DNA of 44,585 nucleotides, taken from the NCBI GenBank assembly GCA_018302465.1, contig JAGVZQ010000001.1, forward strand, positions 66,235 through 110,819. The letters run 5' to 3'. Positions 42,615 through 44,585 of the stretch are shown here, piece after piece. The notes beneath the pieces are model-generated. The model was not told the origin of the DNA. It searched no databases and saw only the letters and a program-made list of their open reading frames with translations. Both the position numbers and the translations under genes were made by a program. Position 1 is the stretch's first letter. Every line of letters begins with the position of its first letter. This DNA is from Candidatus Woesearchaeota archaeon (GTDB lineage Archaea > Nanobdellota > Nanobdellia > SCGC-AAA011-G17 > GW2011-AR20).

Positions 42615-42655
42615 ATGAATGGGCCCGGAGGGATTTGAACCCCCGACCTACTGGT

Positions 42656-42670
42656 CACTCTCTTGATGGT
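42656..42670 (-). other. tRNA-Lys intron 2, canonical position 37/38
   Basis: The 15-base intron ACCATCAAGAGAGTG fits a second bulge-helix-bulge motif. The central helix is CTCT with AGAG, the bulges are TA|A and TG|A, the outer helix is the mature anticodon stem ACTGG/CCAGT, and the inner part is one C-G pair with a 6-base loop. Because ACCA repeats at both ends the boundary could shift by eye, but the BHB geometry fixes it at 37/38. Confidence 0.9.
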
Positions 42671-42677
42671 TAAGAGC

Positions 42678-42692
42678 TTCGACCTTTTTAGA
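42678..42692 (-). other. tRNA-Lys intron 1, position 30/31
   Basis: The 15-base intron TCTAAAAAGGTCGAA fits a bulge-helix-bulge motif. The 4-bp central helix is CGAC with GTCG, the 3-base bulges are TG|T and AA|G (bars mark the cuts), the outer helix GAG/CTC uses D-stem bases and the anticodon loop, and the inner part is one C-G pair with a 6-base loop. Both cuts fall after the second bulge base, as for the archaeal splicing endonuclease. Confidence 0.9.
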
Positions 42693-42807
42693 CAGTCGCT
42701 CCACCAAGCTGAGCTACGAGCCCATATCTTCGTGAATTGTAAATTTGATTTAAAAGGGTATTGATTTATAAGTAAATTTTAAATATACCCTCTATTTTAC
42801 TTATTCT

Positions 42808-43224: not shown

Positions 43225-43412
43225 TTAACGTCTCCTTTTTGTGGTTTTCTTTGCAGAAGATTTTTTCTTCTTTTTTCCACCGCGTGCCATTTTAGCTGAA
43301 CACACGTTACCTTTACCATCCACTGCACCGGTTTAAACATAGTTGTTAAAAACCTATAGTATAGATAGCCAGGTTTTCTTTCTACTGCATTTTTTACTAA
43401 TATTTGTCCCAT
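43225..43412 (-). CDS. Small basic protein gene split by a 32-base mRNA intron
   Basis: Exon 1 is 43356-43412 (19 codons, ending P-G-Y-L-Y-Y). Exon 2 is 43225-43323 (V-D-G-K-G-N-V-C-S-A-K-M, then a Lys/Arg-rich tail ending K-R-R-R and a TAA). Joined, they encode 51 residues. Without splicing the frame instead reads on to 43194 as a 72-residue protein with no basic tail and no sensible end. The ATG has GGGGGTGA 6 bases upstream and a TATA element near 43465-43478. The protein resembles a small conserved archaeal family, but I cannot name it; the basic tail suggests nucleic-acid or ribosome binding. Confidence 0.8.
43324..43355 (-). other. Predicted BHB mRNA intron
   Basis: The 32-base segment is flanked by bulge-helix-bulge geometry. 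The central helix is TACT with GGTG (two G-U pairs), the 3-base bulges are AT|A and CA|G, the outer helix is 7-8 bp (GCTATCTA with TGGATGGT) and the inner helix 5 bp (GGTTT with AAACC). The cut positions set by the fold are exactly those needed to rejoin the reading frame between the exons. Confidence 0.85.
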
Positions 43413-43484
43413 TTCTTTTCACCCCCTTTTTAAGGCTTTACCGACGAGACATAGTGTTTACAAGTATTTAAATATATTGTAAAT

Positions 43485-44392: not shown

Positions 44393-44585
44393 ATGGCTGA
44401 AAAAACATAGTAAGCTGGATAGCACTAGTTTTAGTTGTTGTTGGAGGACTGAACTGGGAATTAGCTGGCCTTTTGGATTTTAATTTGGTTAACGTAATCT
44501 TTGGATTAGTTTCTTGGTTAGAAAGGCTAGTGTATGGGTTAGTTGGTCTAGCAGCATCGTATATGATTTATGAAGCTTTTCAAAA
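44393..44585 (+). pseudogene. DUF378-family membrane protein, frameshifted and cut by window edge
   Basis: From the ATG at 44393 the frame reads M-A-E-K-T and then a TAG stop. One extra A in the run at 44400-44405 would give M-A-E-K-N-I-V-S-W-I-A-L, then the typical DUF378 sequence V-G-G-L-N-W-E-L-A-G-L with two membrane helices and L-V-G-L-A-A-S-Y-M-I-Y-E-A. A ribosome site (GAGGTGAT) and a TATA-like run near 44351-44359 precede it. The end lies outside the window. It may be a true pseudogene, a sequencing error in a homopolymer, or a slippage site. Confidence 0.7.

Follow-up and report, generated by a model that had tools for sequence, protein, structure and literature searches.

Bulge-helix-bulge introns predicted in protein-coding genes of a Woesearchaeota archaeon and its relatives

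A gene for a small basic protein in a Candidatus Woesearchaeota archaeon is interrupted by 32 nucleotides that almost certainly represent an archaeal pre-mRNA intron, with sequence evidence pointing to excision by the tRNA splicing endonuclease EndA and joining by the ligase RtcB. The gene lies on the minus strand of the window, by which is meant the whole 44,585-nucleotide stretch of DNA analyzed here, taken from a MAG of 749 kb. A preliminary description of the window had interpreted the interruption as a bulge-helix-bulge (BHB) intron, and that interpretation is supported. The finding is broader than the single gene described at that time, as rtcB and alba of this genome also contain predicted introns, and these recur in relatives.

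The interrupted gene and its uninterrupted relatives

The gene runs from an ATG at 43412 to a stop at 43225 (Table 1). Deletion of 43355-43324 from the minus strand fuses MGQILVKNAVERKPGYLYY with VDGKGNVCSAKMARGGKKKKKSSAKKTTKRRR at codons 19 and 20, producing the 51-residue basic protein that was originally proposed from the joining of two frames, and the uninterrupted protein of relatives throughout the order agrees with it. Left unspliced, the frame loses the conserved sequence once codon 19 is passed and becomes an unrelated 72-codon open reading frame. Only a single placement of the deletion in the window gene yields the product of the relatives, and the join is unambiguous. The interruption itself is confirmed as real.

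The small basic protein was found in 58 of 99 relatives and in 242 of the 378 genomes of the class. Homologues lacking the insertion, which the preliminary description had suggested looking for, are present and contiguous at the exact predicted junction, with all 30 of the best homologues fetched reading LYY-[VI]DG unbroken; homologues that translate the 32 bases as part of the frame were also sought, and none was seen. When 28 sequences are aligned, sixteen positions are invariant, and the spliced window product retains every one of them. The protein has no sequence match in Pfam, NCBIfam, or the PDB, and the AlphaFold model of a relative's protein is poor (pLDDT 67, pTM 0.30) and matched nothing in a fold search. 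The gene at L039 (G022:C11) contains a 69-nt tandem duplication, and in family f4 and others the protein consists of two tandem domains within one open reading frame (for example, G055 and G073).

Table 1. Features of the window gene and of the additional interrupted genes of the same genome. Positions refer to the window unless a contig is named; the caret marks the predicted cut.
Feature	Position	Strand	Basis or remark
RBS-like GGGGGTG, 7 nt 5' of ATG 43412	43420..43426	-	relatives have GGAGGT(G) there
Exon 1, codons 1-19, MGQILVKNAVERKPGYLYY	43356..43412	-	matches residues 1-19 of relatives
BHB intron (predicted), 32 nt, AGGTTTTTAACAACTATGTTTAAACCGGTGCA	43324..43355	-	absent in relatives; G071 carries a homologous intron (31 nt) at this site
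Exon 2, codons 20-51 and stop, VDGKGNVCSAKMARGG and basic tail; VDGKGNVCSAKMARGGKKKKKSSAKKTTKRRR up to the stop	43225..43323	-	aligns to relatives
Predicted spliced junction, GGCTATCTATACTAT joined to GTGGATGGTAAAGG			
Outer helix, 5' strand, GCTATCTA, exon	43362..43369	-	pairs without a break with 43315-43322 (8 bp)
Central 4-bp helix, exon strand TACT	43358..43361	-	pairs with 43326-43329
5' bulge AT^A, predicted cut 43356/43355	43355..43357	-	cut after second bulge base
Inner helix, 5' strand GGTTT	43350..43354	-	pairs with 43330-43334
Inner helix, 3' strand AAACC	43330..43334	-	pairs with 43350-43354
Central 4-bp helix, intron strand GGTG	43326..43329	-	pairs with 43358-43361
3' bulge CA^G, predicted cut 43324/43323	43323..43325	-	cut after second bulge base
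Outer helix, 3' strand, TGGATGGT, exon	43315..43322	-	pairs with 43362-43369
rtcB intron (predicted), 31 nt	G000:C1:4867-4897 (L247)	-	BHB; protein sequence of relatives
alba intron a (predicted), 32 nt	G000:C20:13676-13707 (L179)	-	product as in G001
alba intron b (predicted), 30 nt	G000:C20:13642-13671 (L179)	-	product as in G001

A bulge-helix-bulge fold at the junctions

The exon ends and the 32 nucleotides can be arranged in a BHB with outer, central, and inner helices of 8, 4, and 5 bp and two bulges of 3 nt, where two of the four pairs of the central helix (TACT/GGTG) are G-U. The predicted cuts, after the second base of both bulges, coincide with the register set by the protein of the relatives. 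Each part of the fold as originally drawn, namely the 3-base bulges, the 4-bp central helix, and the cut positions, was verified on the minus strand. When every window position was scanned on both strands for lengths of 24-40 nt, a full BHB (4/4 central, at least 5 inner, and at least 8 outer pairs) occurred at one of 1,511,810 placements, position 43355 with length 32, in keeping with the earlier contention that the fold and the frame match beyond chance. In shuffles of the window intron at fixed register, 4/4 central and at least 4 inner pairs arose at a frequency of 0.0005. The fold has an energy of -17.1 kcal/mol (z = -2.9). In the minimum-energy structure obtained without constraints, the central part is paired differently, so the BHB is not singled out by energy alone.

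Two other features of the window were observed. A tRNA-Lys(CTT)-like gene of 104 nt at 42620-42723 (minus strand) scores 49.7 bits with Rfam and was missed by ARAGORN; it contains ~30 nt of intron, possibly as two small anticodon-arm introns in an arrangement resembling ACTG, 15 nt, GCTCTTAAC, 14-15 nt, CAGT. A DUF378 gene (PF04070, 67.6 bits) occupies 44394-44585 on the plus strand, and the frame of its start codon is broken by an apparent one-base homopolymer difference in AAAAAA near the contig end.

Predicted introns in the same gene of relatives

A 31-nt intron nearly identical to that of the window gene occupies the same codon boundary in G071, which belongs to a different family. At locus L034, this intron and its flanking exon are closer to window positions 43324-43412 than is the sequence of the same-genus genome G001, which lacks the intron. 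The likeness between G071 and the window may stem from an ancient shared intron that many lineages lost, or from transfer. In G021, a 30-nt intron lies at the window codon boundary and a 32-nt intron five codons later at N24/V25 (the slash in a motif marks the intron site throughout), the latter splitting the N codon as A/AT. This second site alone is occupied in G003 (33 nt), G040 (28 nt), and G074 (32 nt).

Predicted introns in rtcB and alba

The rtcB gene of the same genome is interrupted, and that of G001, with 97% identity, is not. Spliced RtcB reads MPDGHWGYGFPIGG as in G001, with the W codon assembled from TG/G, and aligns end to end with PF01139 (positions 1-426, 582.6 bits). Its predicted BHB has a central helix of CCAT/GTGG (strands separated by the slash), an inner helix of TGTGA/TCACA, and is without an outer helix. 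In alba, a 4-nt exon, TGAA, separates two introns; the spliced product contains KPFMNYVTG, as does that of G001, and scores 57.2 bits in Pfam. Intron a is similar to an intron of G082, which belongs to another family. The central helix of intron b has three of four pairs before removal of intron a and all four after it, and a strict order of splicing would not be required because three pairs are already available.

Placement by the protein sequence of relatives gave 48 introns across the order, 28-34 nt in length and from 30 genomes, divided among the small basic protein gene (7), rtcB (22), and alba (19). The true numbers are at least this high, since small genes with two interruptions were missed at first look. 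A central helix of 4/4 pairs with an inner helix of at least 4 bp is retained in 31 of the 48 despite many differing sequences, against a total of 0.07 expected from shuffles of introns at the same placements; the best BHB was taken where several placements fit, and the shuffles allow for this choice. The introns share structure rather than sequence, and MAFFT gave no common column register. The remaining 17 fail the strict criterion, mostly with 2-3 central pairs or an inner helix that is short or broken; among the 48, the outer helix is often weak or absent, so many of these introns would be relaxed BHBs. For one of them, in alba of G043, no BHB was found in any placement tested.

The sites are few and fixed. 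In rtcB of the order they lie around DGHW/GYG and at GFD/INCG, where the D and C are active-site metal ligands, and in alba at KPF(A/TG)N and KPFM(AA/T)Y. An rtcB intron is also present in two genomes beyond the order, G261 and G263. Co-occurrence of rtcB and alba introns across genomes is a tendency only (odds ratio 2.9, p = 0.09). As a separate observation, rtcB of G040, G049, G075, G042, and others carries long in-frame insertions of ~1.4-1.6 kb. These are probably inteins, and they lie at roughly the conserved position (FD/INCG) that BHB introns occupy in other genomes.

A blind scan for a BHB with an open frame over 273 kb of the genome returned 178 candidates, compared with 158-171 when the pairing was shifted. 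This is the level of noise, and introns were therefore accepted only with homology. Comparison of this genome (320 kb) with same-genus G001 (421 kb) recovered only alba and the window gene as intron differences, which suggests that a genome will hold few mRNA introns. Four further hits of this comparison were dismissed as apparent tRNA genes, antisense or gapped open reading frames, and a noncoding stretch.

Splicing enzymes and proposed mechanism

The genome has one detectable EndA, identified by PF01974 and encoded in the region of C20:20593-20850, with 188 amino acids, an N-terminal domain (PF02778), and a catalytic domain (PF01974). Its closest chains are those of Methanocaldococcus (1a79) and the Nanoarchaeum alpha subunit (3iey). 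A single copy of RtcB (PF01139) was found. The quaternary type of EndA matters here, since a review of the endonucleases assigns narrow specificity to the Methanocaldococcus-type alpha4 form and broad specificity to the Nanoarchaeum alpha-beta form (PMC6379350). Relaxed BHBs have been reported to be cut by hetero-oligomeric endonucleases (PMC6379350; PMC2738675).

In the proposed mechanism, the exon ends and the intron of the pre-mRNA would fold into a bulge-helix-bulge, EndA would cleave both bulges behind their second base, and RtcB would ligate the exon ends, which carry a 2',3'-cyclic phosphate and a 5'-OH. The resulting mRNA would encode the 51-residue basic protein without interruption. 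We infer the cutting, the joining, and the roles of both enzymes in this lineage from the genome sequence.

Alternative explanations

The ribosome might instead hop over a hairpin-forming insert in an RNA that stays uncut, that is, programmed translational bypassing. Conserved protein genes do hold short, hairpin-forming inserts here, often with stops, and such elements are known elsewhere (PMC8211752), but the inserts themselves make bypassing highly improbable. Matching take-off and landing triplets are found in none of 15 representative inserts, and 11 of the 15 split a codon, such that a conserved residue (W, Y, M, or N) reappears only once the nucleotides are joined. In addition, the central helix between exon and intron, at a fixed distance from both junctions, is what EndA requires and has no role in a bypass. 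Self-splicing was considered as well and rejected. The ribozyme core of a group I or II intron comprises hundreds of nucleotides; the insert has just 32, and the only Rfam match in the window is the tRNA.

Decay of the genes into pseudogenes could be suspected in reduced, fast-evolving genomes, all the more as the unspliced window frame runs on into unrelated sequence, but it is given just as little credence as bypassing. The exons retain every invariant residue, the RBS, and the stop; RtcB is required to mature tRNA in archaea, and the one copy found in this genome is among the interrupted genes; and inserts of 28-34 nt with BHB pairing at a few fixed sites are not the pattern of decay. The chance of a sequencing or assembly error, which the preliminary description had named as a possible refutation, is close to negligible. 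A likely one-base homopolymer indel does occur at 44398-44406, 1 kb from the insert and close to the contig end, yet inserts matching in size, place, and fold occur in independent genomes of several families, two of them beyond the order. Because G071 (31 nt) and G021 (30 nt), independent genomes of other genera and families, have introns at the same codon boundary, misassembly is in practice excluded. An intron processed by EndA and RtcB is accordingly the reading that we adopt, with the strength given at the outset.

Relation to known systems

A BHB intron in crenarchaeal cbf5 pre-mRNA was reportedly described by Watanabe in 2002. Crenarchaeal cbf5 introns of 16-44 bp are experimentally supported, and a 2009 paper by Yokobori mentions unconfirmed predictions of them in other genes (PMC2738675). 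According to a 2020 paper, cbf5 was the sole further mRNA for which a BHB intron had been reported; that paper adds another, located in the HVO_1309 5' UTR of Haloferax volcanii (PMC7714728). The preliminary description had likewise named cbf5 as the main known case and knew of none for a small basic protein in DPANN archaea; a search of open-licence full text found no report of BHB introns in DPANN archaea or in rtcB. Within that literature, the genes, the lineage, the repeated sites, the 4-nt exon, and the interrupted ligase gene appear to be new, and the mechanism is known from crenarchaeal cbf5.

Predicted BHB introns of coding sequence are thus extended to three more genes in a different phylum, with recurrent sites and intronless close relatives. 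The system lets gain and loss of introns be traced over short times and makes the drivers of archaeal mRNA introns a testable question. In practice, many Nanoarchaeia genomes must have genes, rtcB and alba among them, that gene callers overlook or truncate. The possibility is raised that the ligase controls its own mRNA. We tentatively propose that, in Nanoarchaeia, BHB introns of 28-34 nt have repeatedly invaded a small set of genes handling nucleic acids (rtcB, alba, and the basic protein), each time at one of a few fixed sites, and that the rtcB intron makes synthesis of the ligase depend on pre-existing ligase, a feedback loop on RNA joining; this combined proposal is possible but rather doubtful, and any regulatory role of the introns is speculation.

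The inserts resemble the byp elements of yeast mitochondria and the hop of T4 gene 60 in being short hairpins within protein genes, and are unlike them in splitting codons, in their BHB geometry, and in having no matching take-off and landing triplets. With the introns of archaeal pre-tRNA, of canonical and relaxed BHB, they share the motif, the cut positions, and the presumed enzymes, but the host RNA is an mRNA and correctness is decided by the reading frame. For HVO_1309, the mRNA is cut by EndA in vivo and in vitro, whereas EndA cutting is predicted here; that intron lies in a 5' UTR and these lie in coding sequence. In form they are like cbf5, which also has a short protein-gene intron with a BHB at the junctions, a predicted cut between bulge bases 2 and 3, insertion in a highly conserved stretch, and patchy gain and loss. 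The introns described here differ from those of cbf5 in their genes and phylum, in occupying several sites per gene, in the 4-nt exon between two introns, and in the interruption of the gene for the ligase itself.
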